Assembly (NCBI RefSeq): GCF_900109545.1
Contig: NZ_FOAP01000010.1
Span: 1 to 64,000 of the forward strand
Source of the DNA: Stigmatella aurantiaca
Lineage (GTDB): Bacteria > Myxococcota > Myxococcia > Myxococcales > Myxococcaceae
Direction: 5' to 3'
DNA: 64,000 nt
Shown here one piece after another: positions 3,325 through 49,711 of the stretch. The translations under genes were made by a program, and so were the position numbers. Positions within the stretch are counted from its first letter, which is position 1, and the number at the start of each line of letters is the position of its first letter. Under the pieces are notes generated by a model. The model was not told the origin of the DNA, did not search any database, and was given only the letters and a program-made list of their open reading frames with translations.

Positions 3325-3380
3325 TCAACCCTCGTGTTGCAGCGGCCTTTCCAGGCCATGCAACCCCTCTGCTTGTTGTT

Positions 3381-3409
3381 TGGAGGCGGCGGGATTCGAA
3401 CCCGCGCCG
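3381..3409 (-). repeat. tRNA/tmRNA 3'-end-like fragment, attachment-site core 3
   Basis: The minus strand reads GCGGGTTCGAATCCCGC followed by CGCCTCCA, a well-formed T-arm plus acceptor 3' strand. No GGAGGCG partner is found on the 5' side, so only the 3' end is present. It is nearly the same as core 1 at 212 and closes module 2. Orientation matches the other two fragments. Confidence 0.68.
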
Positions 3410-3436
3410 GGCGGGATGAAATCTCTACGCCATCTG

Positions 3437-4152
3437 TCAGGGGGCACGGAGCGCAAGCAGCTTGATGCGCTCCGGGTGACGCAACCGCTGGAGGATTCTG
3501 ACCGCGTCGGGATAGAACGCTTCGCGCTCATCGGACAGCGTCCTACTTCAGGGCAGATTCTCCAAGTGGTCGGAGAGCAACGCCGTCAGCAGCGTGGGCC
3601 GAGCCTGGGTGAGATAGGGGACGCGAATCTCCGGTAAAGGCACCTCCGCCAGTTGAAGAGGGAAGGGTTTGTAGTCCAGCCCCCGCTCCAGGAGGCTTGC
3701 GAGGGTGGCGGCTGGCTGCCGCGCCCCACTCAAGGGCTCGACGAAGAGCTGCGGGAGCATCGCGCTCCTGCGATTCCAGAGGATCTGGGTCGTTGCATAG
3801 ACAAGGTACGAAGGCATCAACACGCTGACGGCGGCGGCAACCCGGGTGATGAATCGCCCCCTCCTGGGAGAGGCTCCTCGAAATACACGCAACAGCGAAG
3901 GCAGGACGCCATCCTCGGTTGAGTGACATCCCCTGCTTTGTGCCGTGGGAACGCTCCCTGAAGCTCATCGAGCAGCGCGTCCCACTTCGCCCAAGCCAAT
4001 GCTTGATCCCACGCCTCAGTCCAACGCTGATACTGTGGCGTGCGTTGATGAGGATGAAGCGGTTGAGAAGGGTCGTCAGTCTCTATTGGGAAGCCCTCAG
4101 GAAAGTAAGTATGGGCAACCCGAATGCACTCTTCGAGAGTGAAGTCATTCAT
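3437..4152 (-). pseudogene. Decayed probable immunity gene of module 3 (frameshift plus in-frame stop)
   Basis: The frame from the ATG at 4152 runs about 99 codons. It then loses coding character at a G5 run near 3855-3860, and the next frame continues sensibly to a TGA at 3548-3550. Adding one G would join them. Beyond that TGA the same frame stays open and coding-like for 33-37 codons to 3437, so the TGA is probably a nonsense mutation. I do not recognise the family. The product would be about 240 residues, soluble apart from a weakly hydrophobic stretch. The ATG overlaps the stop of the toxin remnant upstream (ATGA), so it is best read as the antidote partner. Confidence 0.6.
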
Positions 4153-4391
4153 GGTTTCACTTCTTCTGGGAGATCAAAATACACGATCCCGATACCTGGG
4201 GTGACACATTCCGATACTCTGGAACCAGAGACTTGGTCTCTCAACTTCCGTCCGTATTTTTCCTTGAATTCGTTACACAGCCCAAACTTTCCATGGCAAG
4301 CACGCCAACGAGGAACACCTTCTTGTATGCCCTGATGATGGTGGCTGACCGCATCCTCTCTCGCTATCTGCCCCTTTTGGCAGCCCTGCGT
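4149..4391 (-). pseudogene. C-terminal remnant of a toxin (HHH-motif), module 3
   Basis: The minus-strand frame ending at 4149 has no start codon but encodes about 80 plausible residues. They include A-V-S-H-H-H-Q-G (His codons at 4335-4343), W-R-A-C-H-G-K-F-G-L-C-N-E-F-K and a C-terminus G-I-V-Y-F-D-L-P-E-E-V-K-P. Its TGA overlaps the ATG of the next gene as ATGA, the classic coupling of toxin and immunity genes, which supports past function. Upstream of about 4365 coding sense appears in another frame (I-T-P-L-M-K-S-K-L-N-A-S), suggesting a frameshift and loss of the 5' part. Family not identified; the His cluster suggests a metal-dependent nuclease. Confidence 0.5.
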
Positions 4392-4786
4392 TCACCGCGA
4401 TGCGACGAAGCGGATTCGCGGTGAAGGCGGAGGCATTCAGCTTGGACTTCATCAGCGGTGTGATTCCAGGGAAGGACTCGGGTAACAGCTCGTCCGCACA
4501 CCGCGCACAGCCCTGGGACCCCGTCAGCCACCCTCCGCTGCCGCTCCAGGCCCCTTCCTCGCACCTACCCGTGCCCCTGTCCCGCCTATGCGTTTGTAAA
4601 ACTGTTTAAACGGCTTTTCATTGCAAGCATGGTTTCCCGGTGTCATGATTCTAGAGATCCCGGTTCAGGGGGTCCTGCCTCTGGCAGCTCGTCCGCAGCT
4701 TCTTTCCGCTCCGATGCCGGGCTCCGCTGATCGGCCTTCGCGCTCCGCGTCGCGCGCATCTCATTCCCATCCCGGGAGGTTGTCCC
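4392..4786 (+). promoter_or_regulatory. Intergenic region with AT-rich patch upstream of the GH31 gene
   Basis: This stretch holds the eroded 5' end of module 3 and then the leader of the secreted glycosidase. A short AT-rich island at 4590-4625 stands out from the GC-rich surroundings and contains the 8-base palindrome GTTTAAAC (4604-4611) inside a longer imperfect dyad. It is a candidate promoter or LacI-type operator for the glycosidase. No complete gene is seen. Confidence 0.35.
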
Positions 4787-41197: not shown

Positions 41198-43528
41198 ATG
41201 ACTCCTCAGCCTTTCGGGAAATACCAGCTTCTGAAGAAGCTCGCCACGGGCGGCATGGCCGAGGTCTGGCTTGCGCGCCAGACGGGGATCGAGGGCTTCG
41301 CCAAGAACCTGGTCGTCAAACGCATCCTCCCGCACTTGGCGGAGGACCACGAGTTCGTGGAGATGTTCCGGAACGAGGCGCTGATCGCCGCGCGCTTCAC
41401 CCACCCGAACATCGCCCAGGTGTACGAGTTCGGCGAGGCCAACGGCACCTATTACATCGCCATGGAGTTCGTCCACGGCGAGGACCTGGGCCGGGTGATG
41501 CGCAAGGCCTACGGCAAGGACCAGTGGATTGCCCGTCCGCTGGCCATCCGCATCGTCGCCGCCGCGTGCGAGGGGCTGTATTACGCGCACACCCGCACGG
41601 ATGACGCGGGCCGCCCCCTCAAGGTGGTGCACCGGGACATCTCCCCGCAGAACATCCTCATCAGCTTCGACGGCTCGGTGAAGCTGGTGGACTTCGGCAT
41701 CGCCAAGGCCGCCGACCAGGTGGGGCTCACGAAGTCCGGCGCCATCAAGGGCAAGTTCGCCTACATGGCCCCGGAGCAGGCCTCGGGCAAGGCGCTGGAT
41801 CACCGCGCGGACATCTTCGCCATCGGGCTGGTGCTCTACGAACTGCTCACGTGCAACCGCCCGCTCAAGCGCGAGACGGAGCTGGCCACGCTCCAGGCCG
41901 CGCTCGAGTGCAGCATCCAGCCGCCCTCCCAGGTGGCCGATGTGCCCCCGGGCATGGACGAGGTGGTGATGCGGGCGCTGTCCAAGGCGGCGGATGACCG
42001 CTACCGCGACGCGCGCCAGTTCCAGCTCGCCCTGGAGGAGGCCCTCGTGCGCGAGCAGGCGGTGGCCAGCTCCGTGCAGATCTCCGAGCTGATGGAGACG
42101 CTCTTCGCGGACCGCCTCCAGGAGGAGAAGAAGTCCGGCAACCCCGAGCCCAACGGAGAGGACTCCAGCAGCTCGGCCAACCTGGCCCCCCCGGCGCCGC
42201 CCGCGGAGCCCGCGCCCGCCCGGCCGTCGCGGACCCCGCCGTCCGCCGTGGCGGACATGCGCTGGGAGGCCCCTCCGGGCGAGAGCTCCCAGCGTCACGA
42301 CCGGCCCCGCACCTCCACGGGCATCCGGCCCGCCACGCGCACCTCCCAGCCGCCCTCGCTGCACGAGGAGATGAACGAGTACCTGGCGCCGCAGGGCACC
42401 CAGGTGGCGCCGGTGCCCCGGCGCTCGGGGGAGACGCCCCGCCGGGCCACGGGCGCCGGACAGACGGCCGTCGGGCGCATGCCCTCGCGCCCGGAGATGA
42501 GGGCTCCCACCGAGGACGCGGCGCCCGTGCGGCGCAGTGCCTCCCGGCAGGTGCCGCTCTCCGAGGAGGAGGCGCGCCCCGCGCCCCGGCCTTCCCGCGC
42601 GGCGCTTGCCCTGGAGGCCCGGGCACGGCGCCAGGAGGAAGAGGACCCCTACGAGGACTCCGAGCGCACCCAGTTGCCGGAGCCGGAGCCGGAGACGCAG
42701 CCCACCCCGTCTCCCGCGCCCCCGCCCCGGCGCCGGACCACGGGCCATGTGAGCCAGGTGCGGCCCTCGGGCGAGCATTCCCAGCCCCCGCGCCGGCGCA
42801 CGGGCGTTGTCCCCAAGAGCAGCGTGGAGATGCGGGAGGCGCCCGTACGCAAGCCGGTGGTGGTGGAGGACGATGAGCCCTCCTCGCCCTCGGCCCCCGC
42901 GGCGCCCAAGCCGAAGAGGCCCGTGCTGCGCAACCCGGGCGAGGTGCTCAAGAAGGTCCTTGCCGGGGTGGCCCTCCTGGGGGTGGCAGGGCTCATCTTC
43001 GCCTTCCGGGACAAGCTCAACATCAAGGGCATCGACGGCCAGGGCATCCTGGTGTCGGTGGACACGTCCCCGAAGACCCACGTGACGGTGCGCCACAGCG
43101 ACCGGTGCGGCAGCTCGGATCCCCTGACCGAGCTGGGCGAGACGCCCCTCAAGGGGGTGGCGGGCGCCCACATCCAGGACACGCTCATCCTGGAGAACCG
43201 TCAGCAGGGCATCTACGCCGAGGAGGAGCTGCCCTACGGCGAGCCCGGCGAGATCAAGGTCATCAAGCGCGAGTTCAAGATGGGCTCCGTCCAGCTCAAG
43301 GTCAGCCCCCGCAACCCGGGGAAGATCACCATCCGGGAGCGGGGCCAGGACATCTACGACTTCACCCCGGGCATCCCGTTCGATCTGATGGAGGGCCCGC
43401 ACGTGCTGGAGCTTCACAGCGAGAAGCTCGAGAAGCCCCTCACGGTGGAGGTCCAGGTGAGGCGGGGCGCCACCACCACGGTGTCGGCGGACCTGAACGC
43501 CCAGACCGTCAAGGAAGTGCTGCCCTAG
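41198..43528 (+). CDS. Eukaryotic-like Ser/Thr protein kinase with PEGA-like C-terminus (copy A)
   Basis: This 776-residue kinase has a catalytic domain spanning 8-275. The Gly-loop is A-T-G-G-M-A-E-V, the catalytic loop H145-R-D-I-S-P-Q-N, the Mg loop D-F-G, then A-P-E-Q. A long Pro/Arg/Glu-rich disordered linker (about 310-580) leads to a membrane helix (about 588-605) and an extracytoplasmic domain of about 170 residues. Its K-I-T-I-R-E-R-G and final repeat look like PEGA-type sandwich folds. It phosphorylates Ser/Thr of partners in development or stress pathways; targets are unknown. Its stop overlaps that of the convergent rhodanese gene. Confidence 0.92.
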   Translation: MTPQPFGKYQLLKKLATGGMAEVWLARQTGIEGFAKNLVVKRILPHLAEDHEFVEMFRNEALIAARFTHPNIAQVYEFGEANGTYYIAMEFVHGEDLGRVMRKAYGKDQWIARPLAIRIVAAACEGLYYAHTRTDDAGRPLKVVHRDISPQNILISFDGSVKLVDFGIAKAADQVGLTKSGAIKGKFAYMAPEQASGKALDHRADIFAIGLVLYELLTCNRPLKRETELATLQAALECSIQPPSQVADVPPGMDEVVMRALSKAADDRYRDARQFQLALEEALVREQAVASSVQISELMETLFADRLQEEKKSGNPEPNGEDSSSSANLAPPAPPAEPAPARPSRTPPSAVADMRWEAPPGESSQRHDRPRTSTGIRPATRTSQPPSLHEEMNEYLAPQGTQVAPVPRRSGETPRRATGAGQTAVGRMPSRPEMRAPTEDAAPVRRSASRQVPLSEEEARPAPRPSRAALALEARARRQEEEDPYEDSERTQLPEPEPETQPTPSPAPPPRRRTTGHVSQVRPSGEHSQPPRRRTGVVPKSSVEMREAPVRKPVVVEDDEPSSPSAPAAPKPKRPVLRNPGEVLKKVLAGVALLGVAGLIFAFRDKLNIKGIDGQGILVSVDTSPKTHVTVRHSDRCGSSDPLTELGETPLKGVAGAHIQDTLILENRQQGIYAEEELPYGEPGEIKVIKREFKMGSVQLKVSPRNPGKITIRERGQDIYDFTPGIPFDLMEGPHVLELHSEKLEKPLTVEVQVRRGATTTVSADLNAQTVKEVLP

Positions 43529-44399: not shown

Positions 44400-44957
44400 T
44401 CAGCCCCCTTGCGAGGGCACCATCACCCTCAGCCAGGCCTGCGTTTCCTTCCTGCGAGCGAGGCGCTGGGTGCGCCGCTCCTCGGCCTGCTGAAACGCCA
44501 CGCGCTCCTCCTCCGTCGTGAGTTGCAGGGGCGGCACCTGGGCGCGGCTTCCGTCCTTGTTGAGGGCGACGAAGGTCATCAGCGCGCTGGTGGTGAGGGT
44601 GCGCTCGCCGGTGAGCGGGTTCTCCGCGTGCACGGTGACGCCCACCTCCATGGAGCTGTGGAAGGCGGCGAGCACGCGCGAGCGCAGCAGGGCAATCCAG
44701 CCCACACGAATGGAGGCATGGAAGTGCAGATCGTCCATGGAGGCGGTCACCACCACCTGCCTGCAGTGGCGCTGGGCCGCGATGGCCCCGCAGATGTCAA
44801 TCCATTGCATGACCTTGCCGCCGAACGCCGCGTTCAGGTTGTTGGCATCCGGGGGAAGGATCATCTGCGTCATCAGCACTTCGGAGTCGCGTGGACTCTT
44901 GGCCGTAAGGTCTTGCACAGGGGCTCCTCGGGAGTTCGGTGGCGGCATCAGCGGCAT
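44400..44957 (-). CDS. Acyl-CoA thioesterase (hotdog fold, YciA/BACH-like)
   Basis: This protein of about 185 residues has a hotdog domain that starts V-L-M-T-Q-M-I-L-P-P-D-A-N-N-L-N-A-A-F-G-G-K-V-M, the active Asn/Asp-Gly-helix motif of hexameric acyl-CoA thioesterases. A-S-M-D-D-L-H-F and V-T-V-H-A-E-N-P-L-T-G-E follow. It hydrolyses acyl-CoA to free acid and CoA. The C-terminus is a charged helix. The start is uncertain: neither 44957 nor the next ATG at 44948 has a good ribosome-binding site. Confidence 0.9.
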   Translation of the reverse strand: MPLMPPPNSRGAPVQDLTAKSPRDSEVLMTQMILPPDANNLNAAFGGKVMQWIDICGAIAAQRHCRQVVVTASMDDLHFHASIRVGWIALLRSRVLAAFHSSMEVGVTVHAENPLTGERTLTTSALMTFVALNKDGSRAQVPPLQLTTEEERVAFQQAEERRTQRLARRKETQAWLRVMVPSQGG

Positions 44958-45077
44958 GTTGCACGGTGAATGATTGGGTGGGACTCCCGTACAAGAATTC
45001 ACGGCGCTCGTTGCTCTTCAGGGCAAGGCTCTCTATCAAGTTGAACATCTCGCCGCCCCCTCCCCAAGGACACAGCC

Positions 45078-45509
45078 ATGGCGCTCCCTGCGACCTTGAA
45101 TCCCTTGCCCCATGCCTCGAAGTCAGACGCGGATGATCTGCTGAGGCAGGCGGACAACCTGTCCGCGGCCGAGCTGGACACCTTGCCCTTCGGGCTCATC
45201 CAGCTGGACCGCACCGGCCGCATTCTCAAGTTCAATCAGACCGAGGCGAAGCTGGCGCGCATCAACCGCGACCGGCAGATCAACCGGAACTTCTTCGATG
45301 AAGTGGCCCCCTGCACCAAGGTGCGGGAGTTCTACGGCCGGTTCTTGCACGGGCTGAACCAGCGCTCGCTGTACGAGACGTTTGGCTTCGTCTTCAAGTT
45401 CGACCATGGCTGGCGCAACGTGGCCATCACCATGTTCTACAGCGAGAAGACCGACTCGGTGTGGGTGCTCATCTCCCAGACGTCCGTCACCCCGCCCCCG
45501 GGGCGCTGA
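45078..45509 (+). CDS. Photoactive yellow protein (PYP)-like PAS protein
   Basis: This 143-residue small PAS-domain protein is collinear with Halorhodospira PYP over its core without gaps. The chromophore Cys69 region is kept as N-F-F-D-E-V-A-P-C79-T. Glu46, which hydrogen-bonds the p-coumaric chromophore, is Glu56. Tyr42 is Phe52, Thr50 is Ala60 and Arg52 is Ile62, so the binding pocket is altered. The start of the domain (F-G-L-I-Q-L-D) and end (S-V-W-V-L-I-S) fit. AAGGA precedes the ATG. It could be a blue-light sensor or a PYP-fold protein with a tuned or lost pigment. No tyrosine ammonia-lyase or coumaryl-CoA ligase gene is seen in the window. Confidence 0.85.
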   Translation: MALPATLNPLPHASKSDADDLLRQADNLSAAELDTLPFGLIQLDRTGRILKFNQTEAKLARINRDRQINRNFFDEVAPCTKVREFYGRFLHGLNQRSLYETFGFVFKFDHGWRNVAITMFYSEKTDSVWVLISQTSVTPPPGR

Positions 45510-45524: not shown

Positions 45525-46277
45525 TCAGGCCAGGAAGCTGGAGACGCGATCCAGGAACTCCTCGCGGCCCTGGCCCCGGCGGATGTCCCGCGAGGAGACA
45601 TCCAGCACCAGGCAGTCCACGCCGTACTTCTTCTGGAGCACCTGCGGGAACGTGGCGTAGTAGCTGTTGAGGCCTCGCAGGAACTGCTCCTGGATGCCCT
45701 TCTCCTCCTCGCGGCCCCGGGTGCGGATGCGCTCCAGCAGCACATCCACCGTGCCCACCTCGAAGCAGATGACCCGGTCGGGCGGCAGGATGCTGCGCGA
45801 CAGGCGCTGGAAGTACTCGTAGTAGAGATCCAGCTCCGCGTTCGTCAGGTGCCCCAGCCCGTGCAGGTACTTGGCGAAGATCTCCGGGTCCTCGTAGAGC
45901 GTGCGGTCCTGCACGCAGCTCTTGCGCACCGAGTGGATGAGCTCGTGGTGCTCCACGCGCCGGATGAGGAACTCCAGCTGGAGGGTGAAGCTCCAGCGGC
46001 GCATGTCGGCGTAGTAGTCCTTGAGGAACCGGTTATCGATGACCGGCTCGTCGAACAGCTCGAAGCCGAAGGACTGGCTGATCATCTTGGCGGCCGTCGT
46101 CTTGCCGGCCCCGATGTTGCCGGCCAGGGCCAGGAAGCGCCGGGCCTTGGGCGGCTTGGCCCGGAGCGTGTTGCGCGTGCGCGGCGCGGGGGCCGGGGCA
46201 GGGGAGGCCACGGCGGGAGCCGGCTCCGGGGCTGGAGCGGCGGGGGGGGAGCGCTTGCGGGAGACGGGGCGGGCCAT
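45525..46277 (-). CDS. Deoxynucleoside kinase family protein
   Basis: This 250-residue protein has a Pro/Ala-rich tail (about 1-45) before a P-loop kinase fold. Walker A is A-G-N-I-G-A-G-K-T-T, followed by F-D-E-P-V-I-D-N-R-F-L with the base Glu. C-V-Q-D-R-T-L-Y-E-D (DR motif) comes next and an Arg-rich lid (I-R-T-R-G-R-E-E-E-K) later. It phosphorylates deoxynucleosides using ATP or GTP; base preference is unknown. It is convergent with the PYP-like gene. The same window holds a second nucleotide-kinase-like gene at 36736. Confidence 0.9.
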   Translation of the reverse strand: MARPVSRKRSPPAAPAPEPAPAVASPAPAPAPRTRNTLRAKPPKARRFLALAGNIGAGKTTAAKMISQSFGFELFDEPVIDNRFLKDYYADMRRWSFTLQLEFLIRRVEHHELIHSVRKSCVQDRTLYEDPEIFAKYLHGLGHLTNAELDLYYEYFQRLSRSILPPDRVICFEVGTVDVLLERIRTRGREEEKGIQEQFLRGLNSYYATFPQVLQKKYGVDCLVLDVSSRDIRRGQGREEFLDRVSSFLA

Positions 46278-47164: not shown

Positions 47165-49711
47165 GTGTCGCAGACGTGTTGCCAGGGTGTCACGTCCGCG
47201 GTGGGGGGCCGGTCCGCCTGGCCTGTTGCTCCCCGAAGCGCGCCTTTGCGGGTAAGCTCCCTGGCAGGTCCAAGACGGCCGGACCTTCTTTACGGCGGGG
47301 CCACCATTCCTTCCTCTTCTCCCCAGACCGCCATCCCCTTTGGCAAGTACGTCCTCATCAAGCGGCTCGCGGTGGGGGGAATGGCGGAGCTCTTTCTCGC
47401 GCAGGAACCGCCCAAGCCGGACTTGGTGGTCCTCAAGCGCATCCTTCCCTACCTCTCCGAGGAGCCGGAGTTCGTCCAGATGTTCCTGGACGAGGCGCGC
47501 ATCGCGGCGCAGCTGCACCACCCGAACATCGTCCAGGTGTCGGAGCTGGGGCGGCTGGAGAACACCATCTTCATCGCGATGGAGTTCGTCGAGGGCATCG
47601 ACCTGCGGCGCGTCATGCAGGAGGAGGGGAAGTTCGGCGCCAACGTGCCCTATGGCGTCGCAGCGGCCGTCTGCGCGCAGGTGGCCTCGGGGCTCGACTA
47701 CGCCCACCATTCCATCGGCGTGGATGGCCGGCCGCTGCAGCTCATCCACCGGGACGTCAGCCCCCAGAACGTGATGCTCGCCTATGACGGGCGGGTGAAG
47801 CTCGTGGACTTCGGCATCGCCAAGGCCGGCGCGTTCGTCGAGCGCAGCAAGCCGGGCGTCATCAAGGGCAAGTTCCTCTACCTGTCGCCGGAGCAGGTGG
47901 CCCAGGACAAGTTGGATCACCGGGCGGACATCTTCGCGCTCGGCACCATGCTGTACGAAATCACCACCGGCAAGAGCCCCTTCGCCAAGCCCACCACGGA
48001 AGGGATTCTCTTCGCCATCCGCTCCGAGGATCCGCCGCCCCCGCACCTCATCAAGGACGACTACCCCACGGAGCTGTCGCGCATCATCATGCGCTGCCTG
48101 CTGAAGGACCGGAACGTGCGCTACCAGCGCGCCTCGGAGGTGCAGAAGGACCTGGAGACGTTCCTCACCTCGGGCACCCTCAAGCAGAGCACGGACGTGG
48201 CCGACTACATCGCCCGGCTCATGGGCGAGGAGGAAGAGCGCACCGTCTTGCACATTCCCATCGCCGCCCCGGCGGGCCGCAAGGACGCGACCATGCCCAT
48301 GCCCATGGGGCTCTCGGCGCGTCCCAACCGCAAGCCCCTGGGCGAGAAGGCCGCCCCGCCGGCGTACGCCTCCGAGCCGGAGATGCCGACGCAGATGTCG
48401 CGCCCCCCGCCGCCCCCCGCGCCCAGCAAGGCCGAGGTGGACGAAGAGGTGGATGAAGCGGTGGACGAAGCGGCGGACGGCGAGGCGCATCGCGAGCCGG
48501 ACGACACCCTGGACCCCTATGAGGAGCGGGCGGCGGGGCCCCAGGCGCCGGACGAGGAGGACGAGGAAGACGAGCGGACCGCGGTGGGCACGCACCCCAT
48601 CCGGGCCTGGTCCGCCAACAACGACGGCGAGTTCACCGTGCCGGATCGCGGGCGCGCCAGCCGCCCGGGCATGGCCGCCGTGCCGTCCGCGCGCCGGCCC
48701 TCCCTGGCCATCGAGCCGAACACGGAGCCGCGCGCGCGCCGGCCCGCGGCTCCCCCCTCGCGCCGGCCGCTCGCCGAGGAGGAGGACGATGACGAGGACT
48801 CGCAGTCCATCTCCCTGACGCAGCCCACGGTGAACCAGCGGCTGCGGCCCGGGGCGGACGACGAGTCCTCCCGGTCCTTCTCCCAGACGCAGCCCACGCC
48901 CGCCCCGCGCGGCTCCCGTCCGTCCGCGCGGATGGTGCCCTGGGACGACGAGGCCCCCGCGGCCACGGACTCGGACCTGTCCGAAGAGGAGCTCTCCCGG
49001 TCGTTGCCCGGCGAGATGCTGCCCGAGGAGGAGGAGGCCACCGGCGGGTATGGGCCGGTGTCCGGGCCCCCCGCGAGGCGGGGCCGGGGCCTGCTGATCG
49101 CCGCGGTGGCGTTGCTGGCCGTGTTCGCCGGAGGTCTCTTCTGGGCCCTGAGCCCCAGCTCCAGCTCCGAGGATGCGTTCGGCGAGGATTCCTTGCAGCC
49201 CGTGCCGCTGCGGCGCACGGGGGGCCCGGTCCAGGCGCCCCCGGCCCGGCCCGAGGCGCCGCCGCCTGGGATGGATCCGGAAGAGGGAACGGGCCTCGCG
49301 GGGGCAAACGCCGGCCCGGCGCAGGCCCCCGCCGCCGGGGACAACCCATCAGGTTCTCCGGCCGGTACCGGGGAGCCGCCGCCGGAGCCGCCGCCCCTCG
49401 TGGCGGACAGTGCCCCGGTGGTTCCTCAGGCCCCCACGGCGGTGGAGGCCGCCACGCCCGGCGGCAAGAGCGCCCCGGCGAAGCTGGTGGCCGTGAAGTT
49501 CACCACCTCGTCGCGCACCGTGGTCATCTCGGTCGACGGCAAGCGGATTGAACCCAACAAGGTCGTCTCCTTGCCGGCCGGCCAAGTCAAGGTGAAGTAC
49601 GCCTGCTCCTCCGCCCGGAAGCCGACCCGGGGCAGCTTCAAGCAGATCCTCAAGCCGGACGACCGGGGAGCGATCGAGCTGCTCATCCCCTGCAGAAAAG
49701 GCCAAAAATAA
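47165..49711 (+). CDS. Eukaryotic-like Ser/Thr protein kinase (copy B)
   Basis: This kinase of up to 848 residues has its catalytic domain begin F-G-K-Y-V-L near residue 59. Motifs are A-V-G-G-M-A-E-L, L-K-R, H195-R-D-V-S-P-Q-N, D-F-G and S-P-E-Q. An acidic, Pro/Arg-rich linker (about 370-635) leads to a membrane helix (640-663) and a Pro-rich extracytoplasmic part ending in a small domain with C-S-S and C-R-K, perhaps disulfide-linked. The GTG at 47165 is the first in-frame start but has no ribosome-binding site, and the next 55 codons hold no ATG or GTG, so the true start is unsure. It is a paralogue of copy A (41198). Confidence 0.9.
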   Translation: MSQTCCQGVTSAVGGRSAWPVAPRSAPLRVSSLAGPRRPDLLYGGATIPSSSPQTAIPFGKYVLIKRLAVGGMAELFLAQEPPKPDLVVLKRILPYLSEEPEFVQMFLDEARIAAQLHHPNIVQVSELGRLENTIFIAMEFVEGIDLRRVMQEEGKFGANVPYGVAAAVCAQVASGLDYAHHSIGVDGRPLQLIHRDVSPQNVMLAYDGRVKLVDFGIAKAGAFVERSKPGVIKGKFLYLSPEQVAQDKLDHRADIFALGTMLYEITTGKSPFAKPTTEGILFAIRSEDPPPPHLIKDDYPTELSRIIMRCLLKDRNVRYQRASEVQKDLETFLTSGTLKQSTDVADYIARLMGEEEERTVLHIPIAAPAGRKDATMPMPMGLSARPNRKPLGEKAAPPAYASEPEMPTQMSRPPPPPAPSKAEVDEEVDEAVDEAADGEAHREPDDTLDPYEERAAGPQAPDEEDEEDERTAVGTHPIRAWSANNDGEFTVPDRGRASRPGMAAVPSARRPSLAIEPNTEPRARRPAAPPSRRPLAEEEDDDEDSQSISLTQPTVNQRLRPGADDESSRSFSQTQPTPAPRGSRPSARMVPWDDEAPAATDSDLSEEELSRSLPGEMLPEEEEATGGYGPVSGPPARRGRGLLIAAVALLAVFAGGLFWALSPSSSSEDAFGEDSLQPVPLRRTGGPVQAPPARPEAPPPGMDPEEGTGLAGANAGPAQAPAAGDNPSGSPAGTGEPPPEPPPLVADSAPVVPQAPTAVEAATPGGKSAPAKLVAVKFTTSSRTVVISVDGKRIEPNKVVSLPAGQVKVKYACSSARKPTRGSFKQILKPDDRGAIELLIPCRKGQK

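Follow-up and report, generated by a model that had tools for sequence, protein, structure and literature searches.

A PYP-family gene in the window

The window analysed here, 64,000 nucleotides from one end of a contig of Stigmatella aurantiaca, contains a single-domain gene of the photoactive yellow protein (PYP) family, flanked on the other strand by genes of the 4HBT thioesterase and deoxynucleoside kinase (dNK) families (Table 1). The PYP reading frame comprises 143 codons plus the stop, with an ATG start, a TGA stop and a GC3 of 0.92, and is preceded by a ribosome-binding-like stretch, AAGGA, at 45066-45070. Eukaryote-type protein kinase genes (PF00069), which are common in myxobacteria, lie nearby at 41198-43528 and 47165-49711.

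Table 1 Features of the PYP locus and of the second PYP in the same genome. Residue numbers in brackets are those of Halorhodospira halophila (Hh) PYP.
Feature	Coordinates	Strand	Basis or remark
4HBT thioesterase-family gene	44400..44957	-	PF03061; start codon chosen by hand
Promoter-like element TTGCTC-17-TATCAA	45011..45039	+	recurs in orthologue upstream regions
PYP-family single-domain gene, 143 aa	45078..45509	+	profiles, PDB matches, AlphaFold model
Phe52 codon (Y42F)	45231..45233	+	tyrosine hydrogen bond lost; fixed in 24/24
Glu56 codon (E46)	45243..45245	+	predicted phenolate hydrogen-bond partner and proton donor; invariant in 24/24
Codons 60-62: Ala60 (T50A), Arg61, Ile62 (R52I)	45255..45263	+	alignment
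Cys79 codon (C69)	45312..45314	+	predicted chromophore thioester site; invariant in 24/24 of the clade
dNK-family gene	45525..46277	-	PF01712
Second PYP	C26:87560-87886 (L002 1462-1866)		37% identical to the PYP of the window

The initial annotation, made from the sequence alone, had proposed a PYP-like gene at this position, and profile as well as pairwise comparisons bear this out. The NCBIfam model photo_yellow (TIGR02373) matches the product with an E value of 8.4e-28 (97 bits) and the Pfam PAS model with 38.7 bits (cut-off 22.6), whereas the closest solved sequence is the PYP domain of Rhodospirillum centenum Ppr (1mzu; E 2.6e-21), followed by H. halophila PYP (E about 1e-17). Judged by these values, the match to PYP is far beyond chance. 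The score of 97 bits is below the curated equivalog cut-off of TIGR02373 (143.05 bits), so that the protein is not filed as an equivalog; seven of eight other homologues scanned also fall under this cut-off (L167 with 141.9 bits), only L213 passing it (185.9), and one published survey states that, of the PYP homologues which BLAST detects, the model picks up only about 20% (PMC9664959).

An AlphaFold model, built from an alignment of the protein with 61 homologues, had a mean pLDDT of 82.2 and a pTM of 0.76. The best 40 matches listed by a Foldseek search of the PDB were all PYP or PYP-derived proteins. With VIA-align, full-length PYP chains were superposed on the model with Z scores of 15.5-16.8, shortened PYP and nanoFAST constructs with 10.4-14.5, and the best non-PYP PAS domain with 11.3. 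The R. centenum domain (1mzu) gave Z 16.2 and an rmsd of 1.5 over 108 residues, and the Y42F mutant of H. halophila PYP (1f9i) Z 16.4 and an rmsd of 1.8 over 114 residues.

The predicted chromophore pocket

The pocket aligns with that of PYP without gaps, and each residue named in the initial annotation is correct in the alignment: Cys79 and Glu56 are kept, and Tyr42, Thr50 and Arg52 are replaced by Phe52, Ala60 and Ile62. His110 takes the place of M100 (H. halophila numbering, used for alignment positions below), and Cys79 is the sole cysteine of the protein. PYP homologues with Cys69 have been classed as PAS_PYP (PMC9664959), and the window protein combines the PYP-type PAS fold and Cys69 with Glu at position 46 (Glu56), where Gln is also admitted, and Phe (Phe52) at position 42, where Tyr or Phe is admitted. 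The same survey reports that in PYPs with Cys69 positions 42 and 46 are never both replaced.

Two characterised proteins are instructive for comparison. R. centenum Ppr shares with the window protein Cys69, Glu46, F96 and a pocket free of gaps, but has Y42/S50/R52 where the latter has F/A/I, and is fused to a phytochrome and a kinase (PMC9664959), whereas the window protein has a single domain. H. halophila PYP is likewise a single domain; in it Tyr42 and Glu46 hold the phenolate, and in Y42F Thr50 takes over (PMC9664959). The mutant 1f9i thus shares Phe42 with the window protein but retains Thr50, whereas Ala at this position leaves Glu46 alone in the latter.

The initial annotation had further considered that the changed pocket might shift the colour or abolish pigment binding. 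That the replacements mark a failing pocket is not supported, because Ala50 and Leu52 are the consensus of 984 PYPs and Phe42 occurs in 8.9% of them (PMC12826048); they do not indicate that the pigment has been lost. The F42/A50 pair was found in 33 of 124 aligned rows, nine of them outside the clade described below, and is also present in PYPs of Gemmatimonadota and Acidobacteriota; together with the published consensus, this led us to reject the pocket as a sign of decay. Phe42 as such occurs in 40 of the 124 rows, a distribution for which the tree demands no fewer than 11 changes, six of them forced by the starred branches; exchange between Tyr and Phe is therefore recurrent.

Conservation and taxonomic distribution

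In a quick tree of 102 columns, the PYP of the window and 23 further sequences from myxobacteria form a clade (SH-aLRT 92). This tree omits 15 rows, of which 11 were presumed duplicates and four were fragments or disturbed; it has few columns and leaves 52 of 118 inner branches open. F42, E46, A50, I52, C69 and H100 are fixed in all 24 clade members, and the nine published pocket positions (31, 42, 46, 62, 66, 67, 68, 69 and 96) are all invariant. Overall, 54 of 100 columns are invariant over residues 34-133, a domain range chosen after the columns had been seen, and the pocket is enriched among them with a hypergeometric probability of 0.003; this value alone is no proof of a pigment, because buried residues of a PAS pocket are expected to be conserved anyway. 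The dN/dS ratio was 0.12-0.35 across ten sequence pairs, internal stops were found in none of the 24 members, and the gene is, on this sequence evidence, under purifying selection.

Across the phylum, the similarity search returned 58 matches to the window protein; without a 31-aa fragment (G067), Glu46 is present in all 57 and Cys69 in 56, and the sole row lacking Cys69 (L059) looks frame-disturbed. A pattern search, one pattern of which contains VAPCT, kept 80 of 394 relatives, and its 80 of 80 Cys are no conservation count. At E <= 1e-5, a PYP match was found in 42 of 195 genomes of the phylum or, if the better assemblies alone are counted, in 34 of 149; the 153 genomes without a match at this threshold include one of the same genus. 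The product of 45078-45509 is thus a real and conserved PYP that looks functional and adds one more member to a known family of blue-light sensors, and its gene is conserved among myxobacteria related to Stigmatella: a real and largely ordinary find.

Three Gemmatimonadota PYPs (L146, L149 and L153, one labelled Longimicrobium) carry F42/A50, are 51-55% identical to the window protein and are closer to it than PYPs of myxobacteria that fall outside the clade, barring single cases at about 50-59% (L028, L151); this similarity may reflect transfer between phyla. In nine other sequences (L036 at 3372-4421, L030-L033, L035, L040, L046 and L051), the PYP domain is followed by about 215-240 residues, which in L036, the one scanned, contain a V4R domain (PF02830, 39.1 over 31); PYP-V4R fusions are already in print (PMC12826048).

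Genomic context

An element of the form TTGC-N19-TATCA precedes nine of 11 orthologues, several of which are close relatives, at 61-88 nt before the start used; these distances depend on the choice of start codons, several of which were set by hand. By mononucleotide shuffles, the chance of the element is 0.0005 per sequence. A scan for the sigma-70 consensus upstream of the PYP gene found nothing.

In 11 of the 24 clade genomes, the PYP gene adjoins the 4HBT thioesterase gene, with dNK on the opposite side in ten and GDPD instead in one (G060), and in the other 13 none of these three neighbours is found in the stretch around PYP examined. The dNK and thioesterase genes also lie together on one strand, within 200 nt and with no PYP between them, in 30 of 30 loci from as many genomes, 28 of which lack a PYP of this clade and two of which (G077 and G088) have one elsewhere. 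The two flanking genes therefore imply no partner, and their role as functional, CoA-thioester-related partners of PYP was rejected. No conserved operon partner was found across the loci of the 24 clade genomes. Judged by these arrangements, the PYP gene is an orphan, inserted or lost as a single unit.

A second PYP and other photoreceptors

The genome to which the window belongs (9.37 Mb, 99.99% complete) encodes a second PYP (Table 1). It shares Cys69 and Glu46 with the PYP of the window, but has Y42/S50/R52/W100 and falls into a separate group of the tree. Its gene follows a conserved upstream gene and ends about 100 nt before ftsE. PYP occupies the place between these two genes in eight genomes, in four of which the gap between PYP and ftsE is 1.6-2 kb. 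A match to the conserved upstream gene was found in 91 genomes; among the 30 loci examined, ftsE is within reach in 22, 18 of which have no PYP in between, and the other eight lack ftsE within the 1.5 kb examined. A functional link to ftsE was accordingly rejected, the locus being better described as an insertion site, and we found no open-access literature on PYP with FtsE. In one genus group (L043/G074 and L044/G073), the ftsE-side PYP carries Phe42, apparently independently of the clade of the window.

Another genome, G096, also holds both PYPs. The PYP described for S. aurantiaca (PMC6126659, PMC11832031) is probably an orthologue of the PYP of the window or of its paralogue; as presented in the available passages of PMC11832031, S. 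aurantiaca has a single PYP, whereas the window genome and G096 each show two. In the survey of PMC12826048, more than one PYP is reported for 16% of genomes, and Myxococcota account for 9.7% of PYP homologues.

Among other photoreceptors, the window genome has two phytochrome PHY domains. A BLUF profile search of it gave no match, an E. coli control being positive, and the exact LOV motif NCRFLQ does not occur in it; these searches thus revealed no classical blue-light protein receptor besides the two PYPs. Myxobacterial light responses of the CarH type, or those based on porphyrin or singlet oxygen, offer other possible candidates.

Pigment supply

The initial annotation regarded a lack of precursor genes as evidence against a pigment. 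Indeed, neither a recognised tyrosine ammonia-lyase (TAL) nor a close relative of one candidate coumarate ligase from Chromatiaceae was found, but the power of this result to refute pigment binding is weak. The window genome encodes two PF00221 proteins, HutH, which scores 690 bits against a cut-off of 539, and a HAL-like protein that reaches none of the cut-offs; neither exceeds a TAL cut-off, a test that TAL types without a model could escape. As ligase query, we used the ligase-like gene just upstream of a PYP gene of Allochromatium (L206), a candidate pCL by its position and adenylation motif. Relatives of the query score 583 bits in one and 458 bits in another of two further Chromatiaceae genomes, and its best match in the window genome reaches 30.7 bits (E 7.3e-7). 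Among the nine genomes searched, only the two Chromatiaceae gave a strong match, so that the lack of one does not set the window genome apart. Nor does a coumarate ligase lie beside pyp: no adenylation motif was found in the frames of at least 150 aa of the 3.4-kb locus (L001).

A PF00221 match is missing from five of ten further genomes with PYP, taken from named records, a soft count given that completeness figures are lacking. All five lyases from these ten genomes have Ser-His at the selectivity site, which we take to denote histidine ammonia-lyase; TALs of the Rhodobacter type have His-Leu there. The three Chromatiaceae genomes of the ligase comparison are devoid of a PF00221 match, so that the absence of a lyase is no strong argument against a pigment. 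In view of the five genomes out of ten and of published pyp operons, about 5% of which contain TAL (PMC12826048), we rejected the absence of TAL as a refutation.

Of the 41 other genomes with a PYP match, 30 were included in a wider lyase survey along with the window genome, and a lyase with Ser-His was found in all 31. Second lyases, where readable, have Ala-His, Ser-His, Tyr-His or Phe-His; the site was left unread in L106, L111, L112, L118-L120, L123 and L131, whereas L121, L122 and L132 yielded no lyase frame containing an ASG motif. None of ten second lyases scanned passes a TAL cut-off. One of them, L104, passes that of tyrosine aminomutase (810 over 501) and, we presume, could supply coumarate in its genome. 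Another source is conceivable in G088, a genome that we assign to the Corallococcus genus group and that carries a member of the clade: L107 (651-8870) contains an aryl-polyene-like cluster with an AMP-binding/ApeI fusion, a glycosyltransferase, an MIO lyase, LolA and MMPL, and the lyase could yield coumarate. Neither lyase of the window genome is of this type.

Proposed function

We consider it probable that the gene encodes a small blue/violet PYP photoreceptor with a p-coumaroyl-type thioester on Cys79, Glu56 as sole hydrogen-bond donor to the pigment, an unlinked partner and, likely, fruiting as its setting. By analogy with the family, we infer pigment binding, a photocycle, proton transfer and unfolding. 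Cys79 would hold the chromophore as a thioester, and the phenolate would be hydrogen-bonded by Glu56 alone, because Tyr42 and Thr50 are Phe and Ala here; light would isomerise the chromophore, whereupon Glu56 would hand over a proton, and partial unfolding would make or break contact with the unlinked partner. More tentatively, the same analogy suggests a two-band spectrum with a band at about 450 nm and a 360-400 nm form, a mixed dark state being predicted because H. halophila Y42F alone equilibrates between 446 and 400 nm (PMC12826048). For this mutant, the literature also reports a red shift (PMC9664959), and PYPs with Ala50 are in print with values from 435 to 465 nm (PMC12826048).

The physiological setting would be the blue-light control of fruiting. 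S. aurantiaca is reported to fruit under light of 450 nm and 750 nm, and PYP has been named as a candidate receptor (PMC6126659); that the organism of the window fruits is presumed from its genus group. With this physiology, and since no other classical blue-light proteins were found, a role in development or fruiting is suggested, though less strongly than the photochemistry. The proposal of the initial annotation that the gene points to blue-light control agrees with the family, with the retained Cys and Glu and with fruiting of Stigmatella at 450 nm (PMC6126659), but is not new, as this idea is already in print.

In favour of the photoreceptor we counted the PYP-specific profile and structure matches, the invariant pocket, the dN/dS values and the retention of Glu46 and Cys69, as well as blue-light fruiting and the standing of the two PYPs as the only classical blue-light receptors found. 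Against it we counted the missing TAL and ligase, the TIGR02373 score below cut-off, the lack of an operon partner and the patchy presence.

Some of these points would suit a PYP-derived PAS domain that no longer binds p-coumarate, has lost its light function and senses, for example, the redox state by way of Cys79 or an aromatic ligand bound non-covalently. The window genome shows no TAL or dedicated ligase, both Tyr42 and Thr50 are replaced, and published PYPs without Cys69 demonstrate that the fold can be repurposed (PMC9664959). We nevertheless hold this to be unlikely: published candidates for new functions lose Cys69, whereas all 24 members of the clade retain both this residue and Glu46; F42/A50 recurs in PYPs of Gemmatimonadota and Acidobacteriota; and a redox sensor would have Cys79 only, with no second Cys available.

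It is improbable, in our estimate, that the protein loads an external phenylpropanoid (p-coumarate, caffeate or ferulate from plant litter) by means of a general acyl-CoA ligase and so reports light only when plant material is at hand. No synthesis genes were recognised in a nearly complete genome, and uptake of the pigment has been floated for PYP bacteria without TAL (PMC12826048), but no uptake or ligase gene is known, the search consisting of one ligase query; histidine or phenylalanine ammonia-lyase has been proposed as an alternative source (PMC9664959), and the aryl-polyene-cluster lyase of the Corallococcus group could supply coumarate. A bolder variant, which we rate as quite improbable, is that the clade represents a natural single-hydrogen-bond PYP (F42 plus A50) in predators of rotting wood and soil that make no precursor of their own; it would be charged with litter phenylpropanoids and form an AND gate of light and decaying plant matter that cues fruiting in a suitable place. 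That the gene is decaying and has no present function, as its presence in only 42 of 195 genomes might suggest, is highly improbable given the low dN/dS in ten pairs, the absence of internal stops in 24 members and the upstream element common to nine of 11 orthologues.

Implications

That Stigmatella and other Myxococcota possess PYP is already published, and an origin of PYP in this phylum has been proposed as likely (PMC9664959); relatives of the gene of the window are probably contained in the supplementary data sets of published PYP surveys. Relative to the open-access literature consulted, the separate group of ftsE-side PYPs, the fixed F42/A50/I52/H100 set and the analysis of insertion sites appear to be new.

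The photoreceptor reading, which we favour, bears on the organism and on the family. PYP is the proposed receptor for the blue-light trigger of fruiting in Stigmatella, and the window offers a defined, deletable gene with one paralogue. As no pigment pathway was recognised, it may be asked from what source non-phototrophs obtain p-coumarate. Finally, the natural F42/A50 pair provides a test of how far the tuning of PYP rests on Glu46 alone.
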